DNA of 55,099 nucleotides from Micrococcales bacterium (lineage in GTDB: Bacteria > Actinomycetota > Actinomycetes > Actinomycetales > WQXJ01). Every line of letters begins with the position of its first letter. Position 1 is the stretch's first letter. A program made the position numbers and the translations under genes. Below the pieces are notes generated by a model. It had not been told where the DNA came from and did no database searches. It saw only the letters and a program-made list of their open reading frames with translations. This document shows, in pieces, positions 25,937-54,606 of this stretch. Location: the NCBI GenBank assembly GCA_009784895.1, contig WQXJ01000009.1, positions 1-55,099 on the forward strand, given 5' to 3'.

Positions 25937-26000
25937 GCCTGGTGATGCACCGCCTGGCGACGATCCTCGTTTTGGCGCGCATTGTTCACCAACCCCCTAG
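25937..26000 (-). repeat. Half copy of the 169-bp inverted-end element
   Basis: Read on the minus strand from 26000 down to 25937 this 64-bp stretch matches 53368-53431 with six differences, all transitions. It has the left end (CTAGGGGGTTGGTGAA) but not the middle or the right end. It lies between two glycosyltransferase genes; the upstream gene ends inside it. Confidence 0.85.
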
Positions 26001-43445: not shown

Positions 43446-44964
43446 GTGGCAGCGGGTGCAAGCGGGCATAGCGCCCCACCGCCTTTGGCCAAGGCTCGTC
43501 ACTCCGACCCGTCTTTGGGAGCTCGGTCTTGGCGCGCTCGGGGCCTTGGCGTTGCCGCTGGTGGCGAACTGGTCCTGGAACGTCAGGCTCTGGGCCGGCA
43601 CGGCGGGGTCGGTTTTGATTGTCTACGCCATGATCAGTGCCAGGGAGAACGTCGCTTGGCCAGGATACGCGGCGCTGCTGCCTTGCCTTGGCACCCTGGC
43701 GTTGGTGATGGCCGGCTCCTACGGGCCCGGCCCCTTGGCCCAGATGCATCCGATCGGCCGCCTGCTTTCGGCCCGGCCAATGGTTTGGTTGGGCGGGATG
43801 TCCTATTCCTGGTATTTGTGGCATTGGCCGTTCATAGTCTTCGCCCGCGCCGCCCTGCCCGGCCTGAGCGGCCCGGTTTGCCTGGCCTTCGGCATCGGCT
43901 CGCTGTTGCCGGCCTACGTCACTCACAAGCTGGTAGAAAACCCAATTCGCTTTAGGCCCGTCTTTTCCCGCCGGCCGATGGCGGCCCTGGCCGTGGGCGC
44001 ACTTTGCACCGCAGTAGGGCTTTCGGCTGGGGTGGTGACCAGCCGAGCTAGCCGGCCGGTCCAACACCACCTGGCCGCAACCACATCGCCGGCCGAGGTC
44101 TCCACTAGCACCCCCCAACGCGATTGGGACGCCATTTTGGCCACGACCAGCTACCCGACCATTACACCGGACCCCCTGGCAGCCGGGGCCGACCTACCGG
44201 CCGCTTACGCCACCGATTGCCGCCAACGCAAGGAAGATGTTGAGCCAAGACCGTGTTTGGCCGGCGACCTGACCTCCTCCAGGACGATTGCCATGGCCGG
44301 CGACAGCTACATCGAACAATGGGAGCCGGCCGTTGACCGGGCGGCCAAGGAACTAGGCATCAAAGTAGTGGGCTACTACAAGGCGGCTTGTCCTTTGACC
44401 GTGGCTGCCATTGACATCTCGCAGGCCCAGGCCGAGGTCTACCACAACTGCCCCACCTGGTCGCGGGCAGTGGTTGATGAACTAATCGAGCTCCAACCCG
44501 ACTTGGTCTTGACCTCTCAGTTCAGCTCCCAGGCCCTGAGCGATCCTAACGATCCGGCCTCTGAAGGCAGCCAAGCTGCGATGGAGGCCGGCGTAATGGA
44601 ACTGTGGCAGCAGCTAAAACGAGCCGGCGTGCCAATCCTGGTACTGGGCCGCAACCCCGCCGGCTTCATTCCTGGTGAGAGCTATCCCACCATTTTCGAA
44701 TGCGTCGCCCAGAACGCAGAAGACCTGACGAAATGCCAATTCGCGCCCGACACGACCACGGCCGAATGGCAGCAAGCGATGGTCCGGGCCCTTGATGGCG
44801 GGGCCACGTATTTCGATTTGAATGACATGATTTGCTCACCGCAGGCTTGCCCCGCGGTAATCGAAGGGGTCTTGGTCTATCGCGGTGGAACCCATATTAA
44901 CGCCACCTTCGCCGAAACCCTCACCCCACTGATCAAGGCCGAACTGGTCAGACACCTGCGCTGA
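43446..44964 (+). pseudogene. Truncated acyltransferase-3 / SGNH protein (OafA-like remnant)
   Basis: The readable frame (43456-44964) starts in the middle of an OafA/YrhL-type acyltransferase at TRLWELGLGALGALALPL. The first ~220 residues with the catalytic His and the GFVGVDVFFVISGF-type region are absent. Later parts are intact: MSYSWYLWHWPF, the membrane segments, and an SGNH domain with AMAGDSYIEQW and VYRGGTHINATF. In the last motif the usual Asp (DxxH) is Gly. A good SD (AAGGGA) and GTG at 43446 are out of frame with the rest, as if an internal deletion joined an original start to the middle of the gene. It shares frame with the epimerase gene, two stops apart at most. Probably inactive; a partial SGNH product cannot be excluded. 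Confidence 0.7.
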
Positions 44965-45084
44965 CCGGCCGTGACCTTGCACCAAAACAGGCTGACCGGG
45001 CGTGACCTTGCACCAAAACAGGCTGACCGGGCGTGACCTTGCACCAAAACAGGCTGACCGGCCGTGACCTTGCACCAAAACAGG
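44961..45084. repeat. Four tandem 31-bp repeats
   Basis: Units at 44961-44991, 44992-45022, 45023-45053 and 45054-45084. Each begins CTGACCGG, then G/C-CGTGACC, then TTGCACCAAAACAGG. Units 1 and 4 have GGCC, units 2 and 3 GGGC, otherwise identical. The first overlaps the stop of the acyltransferase remnant. There are no spacers, so this is not a CRISPR array. Confidence 0.95.
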
Positions 45085-45241
45085 CCGGAGCTTTTGTGAC
45101 GTTAGGATGACCAGGCCAAACGTATCGCATCAAGGATTCGCACCTGTTTTCATGCGCGGTCGTGGCGGCTTGACCTGCGATAGTACTAGGTCACGGCAGC
45201 TGGACCTGCGTTGATGCACGGCCTTGACAGCTCGATCTGCT
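45085..45241. repeat. Degenerate continuation of the 31-bp periodicity
   Basis: After the perfect array, GTGACGTTAG..CCAGG (45085-45115) still resembles a unit. Units ending in GACCTGCG/GATCTGC recur with 31-bp spacing (45149-45179, 45180-45210, 45211-45241), agreeing in about 21-22 of 31 positions pairwise. With the perfect array this fills the whole gap between the acyltransferase remnant and ligA (stop at 45257). Confidence 0.6.
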
Positions 45242-45256
45242 TCCCCACTGCGTCAG

Positions 45257-47653
<2,397 letters not shown>

Positions 47654-47827: not shown

Positions 47828-49495
47828 ATGAACCTAACAAGCGGCACTGCGGCTCCGCCGGCCCTCCCATCTGCACCTAGCGGCGGTTTCCTTCGCCAAC
47901 TGATCAAGCTGATCGCCATCGTTCTGACGTTCTGTCTGGTGGCCTTTGGCGTGGTTTGGTTCTTGACGTCCGGTGGCATCACCAGAACCGCTTCCGACAC
48001 CAAGCTAGTTGAGCTTCTGGTCAAAGCCGATTTCGCCGACCGTGCCTTCTTCACTGAGCAGGAGTTGATTCGCACCAACCACACTGAGCTGGAAGAGGAA
48101 CAGCTGGATCCTGGCAATCAGGCGGTCAAAGAACTGGCGGCCGCTGCCAACAGCTTTGGCATTGCCAACCTGAAGCTGACCGATTCGGCGGCGGATAAGC
48201 AGATCATGGCCCTGCTGACCGATCCGGCCAAGCGTTTGGCCGAATCTCGCGAGGAGATCTGGCGCGGCCACCCGGCTGGCGATGAGTCGGTAGCTACCTA
48301 CACCAATATGCAGATGGCGATCAGGGATTTGACTGCCAAAGCTCCCGATCTAATCCAAACCGCGGTGCTGGTGCCTAGCGCCAAGCAGTACGCCACGGCA
48401 GTGGCCACCGGTGGCAATCCCTGGCCACTGACGGTTCAAACACCCGACAACGACTTTCGCCAAGGAGCCCTAGACACCCTGGTTGAGACGACCCAGAATT
48501 CGGCTGACAAAGCCCACACCGCCCCAACTATCTTCATGTGGGTCACAATTGGCCTGGCCGTGCTGGCCGCAGCCGCCTGGGCCTTGCTGCTAATGGGCCG
48601 CAAAACCTGGGCCAAGCCAGTGCCCAAGGCGCCCAAGGCCGCTAGAGAACCCAAGGCGCCCAAGGCCGCTAGACAACCCAAAGCGCCCAAGGTCCCAGGT
48701 CTGGCCAAGACCGCCAAACAACCACTCGAAGCCGAGGCCGCGGCCCCCAAGGCCCCAATCTTCGCCAAAAAGACCATGGAACCGACTAAGGCCGAGGCCG
48801 CACCTGGACCCAAGGTAGATCAGACCCAGGCAGCGCCGGGGCCCATGGTTGAACAGGCCAAGGCGCCCAAGTCTTCGATCTTTGCCAAGAAAACCAAGGA
48901 GCCAACCGAGCCCAAGGCTGCACCTGAACCCAAGGTTGAACAGGCCAAGGCGCCCAAGGCTTCGATCTTTGCCAAGAAAACCAAGGAGCCAACCGAGCCC
49001 AAGGCCGCGCCTGGACCCAAGGTTGAACAGGCCAAGGCGCCCGAACCCAAACCGGCTGCAGCCACCCAGACCAGGCCTCCAGCCCCAGCCCTTGGCGCCA
49101 AGGCAGCTCAAGCCAAGGCCGAGCCCAAAGCGGCGGTCAAGCCGCCCCTGGCCAGCTCTGCGCCCAAGCCACCGGCGCCGGCATCGGCCGGAGACACCAC
49201 CAAACCTGCGGCTAAGGGCCCCAGCTTTGGTCATAGCCCGGCCACCCGGCCGGCCCCGCGCTTCGGCCAGACCAGCGCCACAGCCGGCCCGGCCGCGCCC
49301 AAGGCTGGTGCGACTGCCGCCAAACCGGCCGGTGCCACCCCGCCGCCGGCTCGGCCGCCCTTAGGCGCGCCCAAGCCTGGCAAGACGCCGCCTGAAGGCG
49401 ACCAAACCCCCAAAAAGGATCCGTCCACTGACACCAAGGCCAAACCCGAAGCTGGCCGCCGCATTCCGTGGCGCACCACCGGGGGCGGGAGCTAA
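47828..49495 (+). CDS. Two-TM membrane protein with Lys/Pro/Ala-rich repeat tail (unknown)
   Basis: 555 residues, not recognised. Short N-terminus, membrane helix 1 (about 23-47), an extracellular domain of ~185 residues predicted mostly helical (TASDTKLVELLVKADF, LEEEQLDPGNQAVKELAAAANSF, AADKQIMALLTDPAKRLAESREEIW), membrane helix 2 (about 233-256), then a ~300-residue cytosolic tail of KAPKAAREPKAPKAARQPKAP type, including two 29-residue repeats (342-370, 371-399). The topology is that of a membrane receptor without any enzymatic cytosolic domain. No clear SD (GAGAACGG about 10 nt before ATG). First gene of an operon with the 57-residue frame, the HATPase-like protein and the PAS protein. 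Confidence 0.75.
   Translation: MNLTSGTAAPPALPSAPSGGFLRQLIKLIAIVLTFCLVAFGVVWFLTSGGITRTASDTKLVELLVKADFADRAFFTEQELIRTNHTELEEEQLDPGNQAVKELAAAANSFGIANLKLTDSAADKQIMALLTDPAKRLAESREEIWRGHPAGDESVATYTNMQMAIRDLTAKAPDLIQTAVLVPSAKQYATAVATGGNPWPLTVQTPDNDFRQGALDTLVETTQNSADKAHTAPTIFMWVTIGLAVLAAAAWALLLMGRKTWAKPVPKAPKAAREPKAPKAARQPKAPKVPGLAKTAKQPLEAEAAAPKAPIFAKKTMEPTKAEAAPGPKVDQTQAAPGPMVEQAKAPKSSIFAKKTKEPTEPKAAPEPKVEQAKAPKASIFAKKTKEPTEPKAAPGPKVEQAKAPEPKPAAATQTRPPAPALGAKAAQAKAEPKAAVKPPLASSAPKPPAPASAGDTTKPAAKGPSFGHSPATRPAPRFGQTSATAGPAAPKAGATAAKPAGATPPPARPPLGAPKPGKTPPEGDQTPKKDPSTDTKAKPEAGRRIPWRTTGGGS
48851..49024 (+). repeat. Two in-frame 87-bp tandem repeats in the receptor tail
   Basis: 48851-48937 and 48938-49024 are nearly identical copies (29 codons each, QAKAPKxSIFAKKTKEPTEP then KAAPxPKVE). 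A partial third begins at 49025 and a degenerate one precedes at about 48750-48850. The repeat count may vary between strains. Confidence 0.9.
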
Positions 49496-49497
49496 CC

Positions 49498-49671
49498 ATG
49501 CCGCGACCTGGAGGCGTGTCGCCTGGGAGAGTGCTGGAAAGCACCCTCCGCCTCCACTTTCCCCCCGGTAGCCATCAGGCGGCTTTAGGCCTGGGCCTGG
49601 CCGCCAGGCGCTCGGCTAGACCTCAGTGCGAAGCGGCCAAACAGGCTCTGGGCAAGGAGCAGTTCGAGTGA
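49498..49671 (+). CDS. Possible 57-residue small protein
   Basis: ATG at 49498 is preceded by GGGAG at a 6-nt spacing and lies 2 nt after the stop of the receptor gene. Its TGA (49669-49671) overlaps the GTG of the next gene (GTGA), the usual mark of translational coupling. The product starts MPRPGGVSPGRVLESTLRLHF, is basic (many Arg) and has no membrane segment or recognised homology. It could instead be a leader region that only couples translation. Base use resembles the neighbours. Confidence 0.5.
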   Translation: MPRPGGVSPGRVLESTLRLHFPPGSHQAALGLGLAARRSARPQCEAAKQALGKEQFE

Positions 49672-51977
49672 CACCGGCCACCCCCAGACGGGGACTGCTA
49701 ATCGCCACGGTGGCTGTCTTGGCGGTCGGTCTGGCCACGGCAGTAGTCGGGCTGATTGGTGCCTTTGGGGCGCTTGGTTCGGCCAAACTCGACCAGTCAA
49801 TAGTGGGCGTTTTCCAGCGGGTCGAAGCCGCCAGCGCGTCACTGGCAAACGAGCGTCAACTGACTGACGAACCTGATGCCATTGACGCCACAGACCGTGC
49901 CTTTGCCGCACTGGCCAGCCAACTGGCTTCTATCAGCATCACGGACTGGACCTGCGATGCTCAAGAAGGCCAGGTCAACACGGCAGAGGTCCGTCAGTAC
50001 CCTGAAGACGCCCTGACCGCCGCCCGGGCTAGTGGGCCGGCTGAAGTTGATCAGCTAATTGGTCAGCTTGATGCCATCCCCCAGCTCTGCGTCGGCTCAA
50101 TCAATGACACTGGGCTTCGCACCACTATCGACTCCTACGCCGCAGCAGTGGCGTCGACTCCGGCAATCGGGGCTCAGGACCTCAGCCAGCGAGACGCAAC
50201 TTTGACGACGGCCTCGAAAGCAGCCGACTCGCTGGTCAGCACGGCTGACGGCCGGGTCGTGGCGACCGCCATCGCGGTTGGCCTGTTGGCCCTTGGCCTG
50301 GCCTTTGGGCTGTGGCGCCTGATCCGTGGCGGCAAGGCTCCGGCCGAGAGCCAGCTGCGCCGGCGCCTAGCCGATGGTTGGCATCGCTTCACCGGGTCAA
50401 AAGATGATTACGATCAGATTCCCGAGGTCGAGATCATCGGTCCGCCGGGCCGCGGCGCCGCCAGCTTGCCGGCTATGGCCGCCCCTCGGCCCGCAGATGA
50501 CCCCGACCAGACCGAGGTAGCTGAACCCGAATTCGAACCGGTGGCTCTCGACGAGCCGGAGGGCCTGCCGGCCTCACCAGTGGCCGGTGTCGAAATGGCT
50601 GAGTCCTTCGCCGACCCGGCAACTGCGGCCGAACTCACCCCCAACCCAGCGCCGCCGGCGCCGACGGTTGCGCCACCGCCCCGACCAGTGCCGCCATTGG
50701 CGCCCAGGCCCACACCCAGACCACGACTCAAGCCTTTGTACCTTGACCCAATGCCGATGAGCCCTTCGGCCATCAGCGACACAATGCTCGAGCCGGTCGC
50801 CGGACTCGATTCGCCAGCCAGCCGGGAGGTTGAGGCGCCTGTCAGAGGTGCCGTCCTGGCCAAATTCGCACCCCGGGTCTCACCGACTCCGGCCCAAGGT
50901 CCGGCCCAGCGCACCCTCAAACCCTCCCGGGCGCGCATCGTTGAACCTGGTGGCGCGGCCACCCATCCGGCCACGGCCGGTCTGCGGCCAGACCAGATCA
51001 GCCAGCTATTGGCGGCCGAGCAGCCAATCGCCTTGACACAGGCCATGACCGAAGCCCTAGCTCAGGTCAGCCGGCCACACCAGGTTCGCTGGTCACTGCG
51101 AACCGAATCCGAGCTGCCAGCCGCTCTGGCGCCACGCCTAGCCCACGTCGTGGCCGAGCTGATCGACGCGGCCACGGCCAAGAACCCAGCCCTGGTGGTG
51201 CTTGTCACCGCCAACCAGGCGGGCCCAAATCTCTACGTCACCGTCTCTGACCGCGCCGCAGGCGGCAGCAATGGCCGCTTTGGCCTGGGATCACGTTCAA
51301 GAGCCATTCAAGCAGTGGCCGACCGTATGGGCGCTTCGCTGACCTCACGCGCCGGGCCGGGCGGGCGTGGTAGCGACGTCACCGTCTCGTTGCCGCTTCA
51401 ACCGGAGGCCGAATCTGCGGCGGTGGCATCCCCGGCACCCGCCGCGCCAAGGCAGCCCAGCCCGGCCATCGCGGCGGCACCTCCGCCGGTCGAAGAGACC
51501 ACTGCGGCCGCACCGACCAGGTCCTGGATTTCGACCAGCCCAACCTACGAACCCGCCCGGCAACGACTGACCCGTCAGGCCCCCTATGAGCCAGCCGCCT
51601 CAGTCTCCAGCGCCAAAGCAGCCCGGGTTACGACCACCGATGCCGGATCATCGATCTGGGACGATTCCGCCCACCAGCGGCGGGTCGCCCCACCCCAGTG
51701 GGGTCAACCGCAAAGCCCGCTGACCGACCCAACTGCCTACGGTCAAGCCGCACCGGCACCGAAGTCACCTGAGGCCTCACCTTGGGACAGTCACGGCGAG
51801 ACCGACAGTCATCATCAGACCCCTGCCACCAGCCCAGCCCTAACCAATTGGCCGCCAGTGCGAGCTGTTGAGGTTCCGGCATCGGCCCCTCAAGCTGCCC
51901 CACCCGCCCCGGTGGCACCACCAGACGACCCATGGGACCGCCTGGCTCCACCCGGCCGGCGCAACGGCGCGGCCTAA
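49668..51977 (+). CDS. Two-TM protein with degenerate HATPase-like domain (unknown, CvnA-like layout)
   Basis: 769 residues. Membrane helix 1 (about 9-33), an extracellular domain of ~160 residues with two Cys (WTCDAQ, QLCVGS), membrane helix 2 (about 195-219), an acidic then Pro-rich cytosolic linker (about 245-440), and a domain at about 470-580 that follows the GHKL ATPase order: LAHVVAELIDAATAKNP (N-box position, Asn replaced by Ala), VTVSDRAAGG (for DxGxG), GRFGLGSRSRAIQAVADRMG and GSDVTVSLPL. A disordered Pro/Ala tail follows. No phospho-acceptor His domain. The layout recalls conservon sensor CvnA, but no CvnB/C/D genes are near. GTG at 49668 with AAGGAG 8 nt upstream. Confidence 0.75.
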   Translation: MTPATPRRGLLIATVAVLAVGLATAVVGLIGAFGALGSAKLDQSIVGVFQRVEAASASLANERQLTDEPDAIDATDRAFAALASQLASISITDWTCDAQEGQVNTAEVRQYPEDALTAARASGPAEVDQLIGQLDAIPQLCVGSINDTGLRTTIDSYAAAVASTPAIGAQDLSQRDATLTTASKAADSLVSTADGRVVATAIAVGLLALGLAFGLWRLIRGGKAPAESQLRRRLADGWHRFTGSKDDYDQIPEVEIIGPPGRGAASLPAMAAPRPADDPDQTEVAEPEFEPVALDEPEGLPASPVAGVEMAESFADPATAAELTPNPAPPAPTVAPPPRPVPPLAPRPTPRPRLKPLYLDPMPMSPSAISDTMLEPVAGLDSPASREVEAPVRGAVLAKFAPRVSPTPAQGPAQRTLKPSRARIVEPGGAATHPATAGLRPDQISQLLAAEQPIALTQAMTEALAQVSRPHQVRWSLRTESELPAALAPRLAHVVAELIDAATAKNPALVVLVTANQAGPNLYVTVSDRAAGGSNGRFGLGSRSRAIQAVADRMGASLTSRAGPGGRGSDVTVSLPLQPEAESAAVASPAPAAPRQPSPAIAAAPPPVEETTAAAPTRSWISTSPTYEPARQRLTRQAPYEPAASVSSAKAARVTTTDAGSSIWDDSAHQRRVAPPQWGQPQSPLTDPTAYGQAAPAPKSPEASPWDSHGETDSHHQTPATSPALTNWPPVRAVEVPASAPQAAPPAPVAPPDDPWDRLAPPGRRNGAA

Positions 51978-51988
51978 GGGGTTGACGA

Positions 51989-53371
51989 ATGACGCGACCC
52001 GAGCCGAGCCGTCACCCGAGCGCCATCGCCATGGTCCTAACCGGCGCTGATGGCATTATCTCGGCTGTCAGCCCGAGCCTTGAGGCTATGACCGGTCGCA
52101 GCCGGACCGAGGCGATTGGCTCACCCTTGGCCCTGTTGCTGCATTCGGGGCAACCAAGCGGTCTAAACACAAATCTGATGCCAGCCCTACAAGCCGGCGA
52201 AATGACGGTGGCTTATCAGCATTTGGCGGATAACTTGGGTGGTTCGGTTTGGCTGCTGACGGTGAGTGTCGGCATTTCTGAAGGCACTTTGCTGGTCGGT
52301 TTCCCACCCAGCCACGAAAAGGCCCAACGCACGGCTGAACGGCTCTACCGCCTGACCACCGACGTTGAGCGCTCGGCCTTAGAGGCAGGTCAGTCGCGCG
52401 AGGCCGCCACCGCGCTGGGCGCGGAGAAACTCGACGCCCAACTGGCCGATATGGGCAATGGCAGCTACGCCGAATGGATCCAAAGTGTCCTGCAGGCCGA
52501 GGTCGATGACCGTCCAACCCTGGCAGGCTCGCCCCAGGGAGGGCCAATGGACTACGTCTGGGACCGGGCCTTGGATTTGCACACCATCGTGGCCAAACAA
52601 CAGGCCGGCCAGACCAAGCTGTTTGAGGCCTCGCAGGTTATGGCCTCGGCCGCCCAGAGTGCTGAAAACCAGGCCGAGCCGATGGACCAGACTGGCGCCC
52701 AGGTGGTGGCAGCCGCCTCGCAACACCAAGGCGGTAGCGCCACCTTGCTAACAGCCGGCCACCGGGTTAGTGCTGGCGCCCAGGATTCGGCCCTGCGTGT
52801 GCGCGCCCTGCAGCAGGTGGTCGAGCGCACCCAGACCCTAATGGCGGCCCAGCGCTTCATGTTGGCCGGCACGTTGGTCCTGACGGAGGCTGTTTTCGCT
52901 GCGCTGCGGCCAGCTTGTCTGGCCAGTGGGGCTTCGGGGCGGGTTTTGCCCGATGCCGCCTACCCACCTGCCGTCAAAACTCGCCCGGGTGACAGGGAGC
53001 TTGAGTTTGTGGCGCCGCTGGTGGCGGCACTGCGTGAACTGGCACCGCGGTTATCAATGGGCACGGCCCGGATCCAAGCCGGGTTGAACCGGATCACCAA
53101 AGAAGCGATCGAGGCCGCCGGGCAACTGCGGACCTTTGACTCCTCACTGGCCTCATGGCGACTGCTGTCCCAGCGTTTTGGTCTACCGACTTGGCTAGTG
53201 CCCGACGACCTCGACCCGCAGGGCGCGGCTGCCCGGCTCGACGGCCTGGTTGACCTAGCCCGCGCCGCCTTGGGTCGCGGCGGCTTCACCGACCCAACGC
53301 CCATTTCTGAAGCCGCCGCCCAAGTCAGCCGGGCCCTGCGCCAAGTTGCTGGCCCTTTCCGCCGCGGCTAG
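51989..53371 (+). CDS. PAS-domain protein with long helical part (Aer/MCP-like, unknown)
   Basis: 460 residues, no membrane segment. N-terminal PAS domain (about 12-110): MVLTGADGIISAVSPSLEAMTGRSRTEAIGSPLALLLHSGQPSG, ALQAGEMTVAYQHLADNLGGSVWLLTVSV, the pattern of Aer-type PAS domains of chemoreceptors. Then a long, mostly helical region (about 112-450) rich in Ala/Gln/Glu with heptad-like stretches, but without the conserved MCP signalling tip. ATG at 51989 with AAGGGG 7 nt upstream, 11 nt after the previous stop. Its TAG stop lies in the left end of the 169-bp element. Probably the cytosolic partner of the two membrane proteins; no CheA/CheW gene is in the window. Confidence 0.75.
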   Translation: MTRPEPSRHPSAIAMVLTGADGIISAVSPSLEAMTGRSRTEAIGSPLALLLHSGQPSGLNTNLMPALQAGEMTVAYQHLADNLGGSVWLLTVSVGISEGTLLVGFPPSHEKAQRTAERLYRLTTDVERSALEAGQSREAATALGAEKLDAQLADMGNGSYAEWIQSVLQAEVDDRPTLAGSPQGGPMDYVWDRALDLHTIVAKQQAGQTKLFEASQVMASAAQSAENQAEPMDQTGAQVVAAASQHQGGSATLLTAGHRVSAGAQDSALRVRALQQVVERTQTLMAAQRFMLAGTLVLTEAVFAALRPACLASGASGRVLPDAAYPPAVKTRPGDRELEFVAPLVAALRELAPRLSMGTARIQAGLNRITKEAIEAAGQLRTFDSSLASWRLLSQRFGLPTWLVPDDLDPQGAAARLDGLVDLARAALGRGGFTDPTPISEAAAQVSRALRQVAGPFRRG

Positions 53372-53536
53372 GGGGTTGGTGAATAATGCGCGCCGAAACG
53401 AGGATCGTCACCAGGTGATGCATCGCCAGGCGGAGGTCTGCCCCGCTAGCAGAGCTAACGGGGTACGGCCGACAACGAAGCGAGGCGCCGCCTGGGGGCG
53501 ACCGCAGCCGGCGGGAATTGTTCACCAGCCCCCTAA
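53368..53536. repeat. 169-bp element with inverted ends between convergent genes
   Basis: Left end TAGGGGGTTGGTGAATAAT (53369-53387); the right end read on the minus strand is TAGGGGGCTGGTGAACAAT (53535-53517), two transitions apart, which still pair as G-U on the plus-strand RNA. The middle holds further small inverted repeats (TCACC/GGTGA at about 53408-53418). No transposase frame. The first 64 bp recur at 25937-26000. Ends give the TAG stops of both flanking genes. MITE- or REP-like, or a bidirectional terminator; undecided. Confidence 0.8.
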
Positions 53537-54606
53537 TCACGTTCGACTAGACCGTGGGCGATGACCAGGTCGCCGCGGTAGAAGACGGCCGATTGCCCGG
53601 CCGCCAGGGCGCCGATGGGCTGGTCCAGCGCAACGTTTCCACGGTCTTGTTCCTGCCAGGTCAGGTGACAGGGATAGACCCGGCCATGGGCTCTAACCTG
53701 GACTTCGGTTTCGAAGACCGGCCCTGGCTGGGGCACCAGCCAGCTCAACTGAGACAAGCCAAATGACTCCACTGCTAGGTCCTCGGCCAAGCCAACCCGG
53801 ACCAGGCCACCAGGCACGTCGACCGCGGTGACGTAGCGCGGCCGGCCTGTCGGGTCCGGATCGCCCAGCGCCAAGCCTCGGCGCTGTCCCACTGTGAAAC
53901 CGTAGGCACCATCGTGATGGCCTACCACTGTGCCAGTTTGGTCTAGAACAACCCCCGCCTGCGCGCCAAGGCGCTGGCGCAAGAAACCTTGGACATCGCC
54001 ATCGGCAATGAAGCAGATGTCGACTGAATCGGGTTTGGCCGCCGCCGGCAGGCCAAGGCTCCGGGCCTGGGCCCTAACCTCAGCCTTTGAGGTCATGTCG
54101 CCTAAGGGAAAGAGGCAACGGCTTAACACCTTGGCTTCCACCGCCGCCAGCACATAGGACTGATCCTTGGCCCGGTCTTTGGACCGGCGCAGCTGGACTT
54201 GATCATCCTTTAGGCAAAGCCGGGCATAGTGGCCAGTACAAATGGCATCAAACCCGAGGGCCGTAGCTTTGGTTTGCAGCAACCTGAGCTTAATCAGCCG
54301 GTTGCAGCGGACACACGGATTTGGAGTCCGCCCGGCAGCGTATTCGGCCACGAAGCCCTCGACCACTTGCTCTTCAAATTGCTTTGAGGCGTCCCAAACC
54401 TGAAAGTCGATACCAAGTATGTCCGCCACGGCCCGAGCCTCGTTGGCCTCATCCACCTGGCCACTGTTTTCGCCGTTGGCCCGGCTTTTGGACGCAGTCC
54501 GGTTCAGGGCCAAGTAGGCTCCGGTCACCTGGTGGCCAGCATGAACCATAGCGGCGGCCGCCACCGCCGAATCGACGCCGCCCGAAAGGGCGGCCAGCAC
54601 CCTCAT
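53533..54606 (-). CDS. mnmA: tRNA-specific 2-thiouridylase
   Basis: Thiolates U34 of tRNA-Lys, -Glu and -Gln. 357 residues. PP-loop ALSGGVDSAVAAA at the N-terminus, TPNPCVRCNRLIKL with the catalytic Cys, ICTGHYAR, KDQSYVLAAV, KPDSVDICFI with the second catalytic Cys, and GAYGFTVGQRRGL in the C-terminal part. ATG at 54604-54606 with GGAAGTGA upstream. Usually in the ligA neighbourhood of actinobacteria; here the receptor operon and the inverted-end element separate them. Its stop codon is supplied by the element. Confidence 0.96.
   Translation of the reverse strand: MRVLAALSGGVDSAVAAAAMVHAGHQVTGAYLALNRTASKSRANGENSGQVDEANEARAVADILGIDFQVWDASKQFEEQVVEGFVAEYAAGRTPNPCVRCNRLIKLRLLQTKATALGFDAICTGHYARLCLKDDQVQLRRSKDRAKDQSYVLAAVEAKVLSRCLFPLGDMTSKAEVRAQARSLGLPAAAKPDSVDICFIADGDVQGFLRQRLGAQAGVVLDQTGTVVGHHDGAYGFTVGQRRGLALGDPDPTGRPRYVTAVDVPGGLVRVGLAEDLAVESFGLSQLSWLVPQPGPVFETEVQVRAHGRVYPCHLTWQEQDRGNVALDQPIGALAAGQSAVFYRGDLVIAHGLVERD

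Follow-up and report, generated by a model that had tools for sequence, protein, structure and literature searches.

A putative receptor module related to the input end of conservons is encoded between ligA and mnmA in a Micrococcales bacterium

Three genes of a Micrococcales bacterium, here called A, B and C, are located on one strand between ligA and mnmA, which both lie on the opposite strand. Which kind of system do these genes encode, and from which known system, if any, do they derive? The window, i.e. the whole stretch of 55,099 nucleotides that was analysed, corresponds to contig 9 of a draft genome of 2.36 Mb (G000) with an estimated completeness of 96%. A preliminary description had proposed an undescribed signalling system, in which a pair of membrane receptors signals to a soluble PAS protein. 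The analyses presented here rather suggest, with a probability of about 0.5, that the trio is a receptor module confined to one family and derived from the input side of a conservon, with the GTPase switch being absent: a phosphorylation-free A/B pair and a PAS adaptor, C, that would dock on B.

The three large, closely spaced genes that had been reported are all present (Table 1), with gaps of 172 nt between A and B and of 11 nt between B and C. The GTG codon at 49668 is probably the start of B, rather than position 49626. A possible small fourth gene did not stand up: the ORF at 49498-49671 has no homologue in the loci of the relatives (best tblastn E-value 0.15) and the gap between A and B comprises just 3-115 nt in these bacteria, and the ORF is therefore probably spurious. 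A promoter scan gave matches near the shuffled expectation, and PADLOC gave no defence match.

Table 1 Features of the A-B-C locus (window coordinates)
Feature	Coordinates	Strand	Remarks
ligA	45257..47623	-	Flank upstream of A, divergent from A
Gene A	47828..49495	+	555 aa; putative receptor paralogue without enzyme domain
Ectodomain of A, residues 47-238	47966..48541	+	Homologous to ectodomain of B (hhalign)
29-residue (87 bp) tandem repeat in the tail of A	48842..49042	+	TRF
RIPWR, C-terminal motif of A	49460..49474	+	Conserved end motif
Gene B	49668..51977	+	769 aa from GTG; putative membrane receptor with degenerate HATPase
Ectodomain of B, residues 31-196	49758..50255	+	hhalign to ectodomain of A
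Degenerate CvnA-type HATPase of B, residues 489-578	51132..51401	+	N-box Asn->Ala, first G1 Gly->Ala, ATP lid absent
Gene C	51989..53371	+	460 aa; soluble Aer-type PAS and helical-bundle protein
PAS domain of C, residues 14-105	52028..52303	+	Structural and profile match to E. coli Aer
Helical-bundle region of C, residues 187-458	52547..53362	+	AF2, pLDDT mostly >88
mnmA	53533..54606	-	Flank downstream of C, convergent with C

The topology that had been described as common to A and B, i.e. a transmembrane (TM) segment, an outer domain, a second TM segment and a long tail, was recovered for both proteins. The TM segments are predicted at residues 28-46 and 239-257 of A and at residues 12-30 and 197-215 of B, and they enclose ectodomains of 192 and 166 residues, respectively. 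Both N-termini are positively charged. Because the 40 residues past the second TM segment of A are also strongly positive (13 K/R, 1 D/E), the predicted orientation with the N-terminus and the tail inside is well supported for this protein. The corresponding stretch of B is not strongly positive (8 K/R, 7 D/E), and the same orientation would rest on the order of its TM segments. Moreover, the two ectodomains are homologous: hhalign aligned them with a probability of 98% (E-value 2.5e-13), reversed and shuffled controls remained below 1%, and the profile of A alone picked up B in the window genome (E-value 1.3e-9). These comparisons show that A and B, as putative membrane receptors, are paralogues that share one homologous helical ectodomain, a relationship that goes beyond mere topology. 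The AF2 model of residues 1-262 of A is a helical bundle (pLDDT 85.5). For the ectodomain of A, Foldseek found no PDB match with an E-value <0.001, a PDB profile search gave chance matches only, and the best VIA match (Z 9.6) covers just 57 residues, which is uninformative for a helical bundle. A structural match to NasR (Z 9.0) is likewise weak and common for helical bundles, and in a search for NIT kinship, the ectodomains of A and B gave hhalign probabilities of <1% with the sensor regions of two Streptomyces CvnA proteins.

As had been noticed, A lacks an enzyme domain; Pfam gave no domain match at all. Its cytosolic tail of 298 residues is of low complexity and of the Lys/Ala/Pro type, and the Lys-rich repeat is not evident in the aligned relatives. 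The most conserved part of the tail is its very end: R[VI]PWR forms the C-terminus of nine of the ten full-length A proteins, which come from four genera, and did not occur in any of 20,000 shuffled tails. An LPxR motif has been reported in the tails of CvnA receptors (PMC4316618), which the end of A resembles, albeit as a short motif and thus by resemblance only. B has no LPxR-like end.

The long tail of B is Pro-rich and contains the degenerate ATPase-like domain that had been recognised previously, beyond which an extra C-terminal tail extends. The HATPase_c match scores 14.7 bits and stays below the Pfam cut-off of 26.4 bits, and hhalign aligned the degenerate B with CvnA, the kinase-like receptor of conservons (probability 97%, E-value 8.7e-12). 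Informative in this respect are relatives that carry A and B and lack C. In these genera, B passes the HATPase_c cut-off (44.1 and 40.2 bits), and the B protein of one of them, G002, aligned with the CvnA of a Streptomyces conservon with an E-value of 2.3e-15, over a region that takes in the N box, the G1 box and the second DHp helix; the matched Streptomyces gene is followed by the roadblock, DUF742 and GTPase genes of a complete conservon. The two full-length B proteins from C-less genomes on which this comparison rests (G002, G004) retain the N-box Asn as well as both glycines of the G1 box. By contrast, each of the nine B proteins that come from C-carrying genomes has Ala in place of the N-box Asn and of the first G1 Gly, and lacks the lid. 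Since the C-less genera possess a B with the ATP-binding residues kept, B can be recognised as a degenerate CvnA, and the alignments show that its predicted cytosolic core descends from this receptor. No acceptor His aligns in any B protein examined, and the DHp helix that carries it is absent from the C-carrying ones. The B protein of the window, having lost the ATP-binding residues and the acceptor helix, is thus a putative pseudo-ATPase from which kinase activity is not expected. It should be kept in mind that the loss of the ATP-binding residues and the presence of C represent one evolutionary event, i.e. a correlation with n = 1, because C was gained (or lost) a single time.

C had been described as a soluble PAS protein with long helices, which agrees with its score of 24.8 bits in the Pfam PAS search (cut-off 22.6 bits) and with its AF2 model (pLDDT 85), which includes a helical bundle with a disordered loop near residues 317-331. 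Its single marginal hydrophobic segment lies inside the PAS domain and does not qualify as a membrane anchor. The PAS of E. coli Aer was the best match in Foldseek, VIA-align and profile searches (profile E-value 3.9e-4), and the structure 8dik superimposed with a Z-score of 15.0 and 1.8 Å over 118 residues. In contrast to Aer, C has no membrane anchor, the flavin-site motif PHNxxRHPDMP is lost in the C orthologues, and no MCP signalling domain was found as Pfam gave no match outside the PAS domain. A structural search with the helical part returned designed four-helix bundles in the top rows and no informative family. Stand-alone proteins with an Aer-type PAS and a helical part also occur in other families of the order (L045 9858-11228, L046 9250-10617), and these keep or nearly keep the flavin-site motif. 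With B being a degenerate CvnA and the PAS of C being of the Aer type, the system can no longer be called wholly undescribed in kind.

The co-occurrence of A, B and C is not due to chance, because the three genes are conserved with identities of about 24-38% at the same locus in other genera; they are syntenic in these relatives rather than scattered as unlinked genes. Five genera carry A-B, four of them with the pair placed between ligA and mnmA, and C occurs in three genera (g1, g4, g6), in which the order is ligA-A-B-C-mnmA where the contigs allow this to be seen. C directly follows B wherever both are resolved. In the C-less G002 (g3) and G004 (g5), A-B lies between ligA and mnmA, and in the C-less G005, A and the start of B adjoin ligA on one contig. 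At the position of C, G002 encodes a 177-aa EutT/Cob_adeno_trans-like protein that covers only part of the EutT model (L116 1952-2485), and a fragment of a similar protein is found beside mnmA of G005 on another contig (L119 6169-6534). In a LigA tree, the C-carrying genera form one group (93/98) and the C-less genera another (100/99). Within the family, the profile of A matched 14 of 18 genomes; among 378 genomes from other families of the order, it matched none. Moreover, mnmA and ligA are often neighbours in other families without A-B-C: mnmA lies ahead of ligA within the stretch compared in 6 of 13 other-family genomes, and A, B and C occur there in none of them. As these genomes represent six families, the comparison supports the earlier suggestion of an insertion, which would have occurred on the opposite strand between mnmA and ligA near the base of the family. 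The core of B has a single weak match elsewhere, in L145, within this set of 13 genomes. The relatives that possess these genes are MAGs filed as 'Bifidobacteriaceae bacterium'. A contig search with C alone yielded nothing, as did a plasmid search with C; with an alignment as the query, ten MAG loci were found. The family probably originates from termite guts, since the isolate code of one relative has the prefix Gsp477 of a MAG series from Glyptotermes termites (PMC11707648).

How might such a module work? A and B may form a mixed dimer or cluster via their ectodomains and TM helices, and a ligand outside the membrane would change the state of this assembly. The pseudo-ATPase of B, no longer phosphorylating, would serve as a docking platform for the PAS domain of C, similar to the GAF accessory CvnF8, which has been modelled on the HATPase/DHp part of CvnA8 (PMC13343842). 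The RIPWR end of A could recruit a further partner, and signalling would proceed through conformational change and binding instead of phosphotransfer or GTP exchange. A and B can work without C, because B has no C partner in the genera with A-B only. A more specific version, which we put forward tentatively, is that of a split CvnA: both proteins would have kept the ectodomain, A in combination with the end motif and B with the pseudo-ATPase, and together they would constitute an obligate heteromeric receptor that loads and releases the adaptor C by conformation alone, without phosphotransfer or a GTPase.

The direction of the signal between the receptors and C deserves attention. The closest case that has been characterised is that of CvnF8, a soluble accessory that acts on its receptor: in vitro, it binds CvnA8 and stimulates the ATPase activity and autophosphorylation of the latter (PMC13343842). 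Accordingly, of the earlier proposal, the receptor pair and the PAS protein stand, but the signal may run from the receptors to the PAS protein or the other way. It is thus conceivable, yet in our view rather unlikely, that C is an input, which would respond to a cue in the cytosol and thereby control the state of A/B as CvnF8 does for CvnA8, while A/B act on an unlinked partner via the RIPWR tail of A. The occurrence of related PAS genes beside CvnA-like genes in pilus clusters (see below) and the strong conservation of the end motif are in line with this possibility. However, B would have no kinase activity left to be modulated, and a redox cofactor on C is doubtful because the flavin motif of Aer is lost. 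Both systems combine a CvnA-type receptor with a co-encoded soluble protein of a sensor fold, for which docking to the HATPase has been proposed. They differ in that CvnF is a GAF protein whereas C consists of an Aer-type PAS and a helical bundle, and in that CvnA8 is catalytic, which is not expected for B. Moreover, the soluble accessories of characterised conservons go with receptors that have no ectodomain (PMC13343842), whereas B has one.

The trio resembles the Streptomyces conservons (CvnA-D) in that the core of B aligns with CvnA and in that a membrane receptor is followed by a tightly spaced soluble partner. In contrast to conservons, the trio contains a second receptor, A, and a B without the acceptor His and the ATP-binding residues. 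Moreover, searches of the window genome revealed no match to the roadblock protein CvnB (PF03259) or to the DUF742 protein CvnC (PF05331), and no match to the family's own CvnD GTPase was found in G000 or in the genera g2-g5; for G000, these absences refer to a draft estimated to be 96% complete. Because these three components and the pilus ATPase PilB were not detected in the window genome, the trio, judged by its gene content, is not a conservon but a derivative of the conservon receptor only, and the comparison with complete two-component and conservon systems returned no complete one. The missing components and the degenerate HATPase of B would also fit a decaying, functionless remnant of a lost conservon. 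This is improbable: the frames are open, the spacing is tight and the order is conserved across genera at identities of 24-38%, and long-standing selection is indicated by the conserved end of A and by numerous invariant columns among the C orthologues.

Relatives of B and C are also found in type IV pilus clusters of the family. In genus g6, a complete conservon (CvnA, roadblock, DUF742, GTPase) and an Aer-type PAS gene lie inside such a cluster, with the order PilD, PilM, then PilB, PilT and PilC (L042 3-15230; also L094-L100). In genus g3, a degenerate CvnA-like gene and a PAS gene are located directly before PilB (L048 926-4863; L101 2621-7658). The pairing of a PAS gene with a degenerate CvnA therefore recurs, since the related PAS gene directly follows the CvnA-like gene in these g3 clusters, and the respective genomes gave no CvnD match. 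The PAS proteins of the pilus and conservon clusters (L042, L101) share the two-part architecture of C and a position directly after a CvnA-like gene or CvnD; they differ from C in their location, in having only about 25% identity to it and in forming a separate group in a PAS tree, which contains one row with a probable wrong frame and a long branch and does not give the source lineage of C. A literature search found no paper on a conservon with a PAS protein or on a conservon in an actinobacterial pilus cluster. The CvnA proteins of the pilus-linked conservons (L042 5238-7997 and four more) have an intact ATP site and Asn at the DHp His site (LDN vs LDH), at which two of three reference CvnA proteins have His and the third one Gln. 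Based on these paralogues within PilM-PilB-PilC clusters, the trio could be taken for a regulator of type IV pili, as the pilus-linked genes presumably are. We regard this as very improbable, because C is kept apart from the pilus PAS proteins in the tree, PilB, PilM and PilC are absent beside the trio, whose neighbours are ligA and mnmA, and the window genome and G003, though both carry A-B-C, have no strong PilB match; like G004 and G006, they gave just weaker matches to the T2SSE family.

Finally, that B is a still functional, atypical histidine kinase whose target is an unlinked response regulator is very unlikely, for although its HATPase core is recognisable and the C-less orthologues retain the ATP residues, B differs from two-component kinases in lacking both the acceptor His and an intact ATP site, the losses are common to all C-carrying B proteins, and neither the trio nor its flanks encode a response regulator.

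The preferred reading of A-B-C as a receptor module without a GTPase switch touches on a general question. The transfer of signals from conservon receptors to their GTPases is poorly understood, and in the present case, a receptor half seems to have been retained in genomes in which no GTPase half was detected. Genera with kept and lost ATP-binding residues exist side by side in one family and provide a natural experiment, which bears on the roles of CvnA-type receptors apart from phosphorylation and on soluble PAS/GAF accessories as inputs vs outputs.

Two kinds of repeats were observed around the locus. A dispersed repeat of about 164 bp with imperfect inverted ends lies between C and mnmA (window 53372-53541) and also at 25937-25996; two more near-full copies, one split copy and several fragments are present in the genome. 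Downstream of ligA, a 31-bp tandem repeat occurs in 4.1 copies with 97% identity (window 44960-45085).
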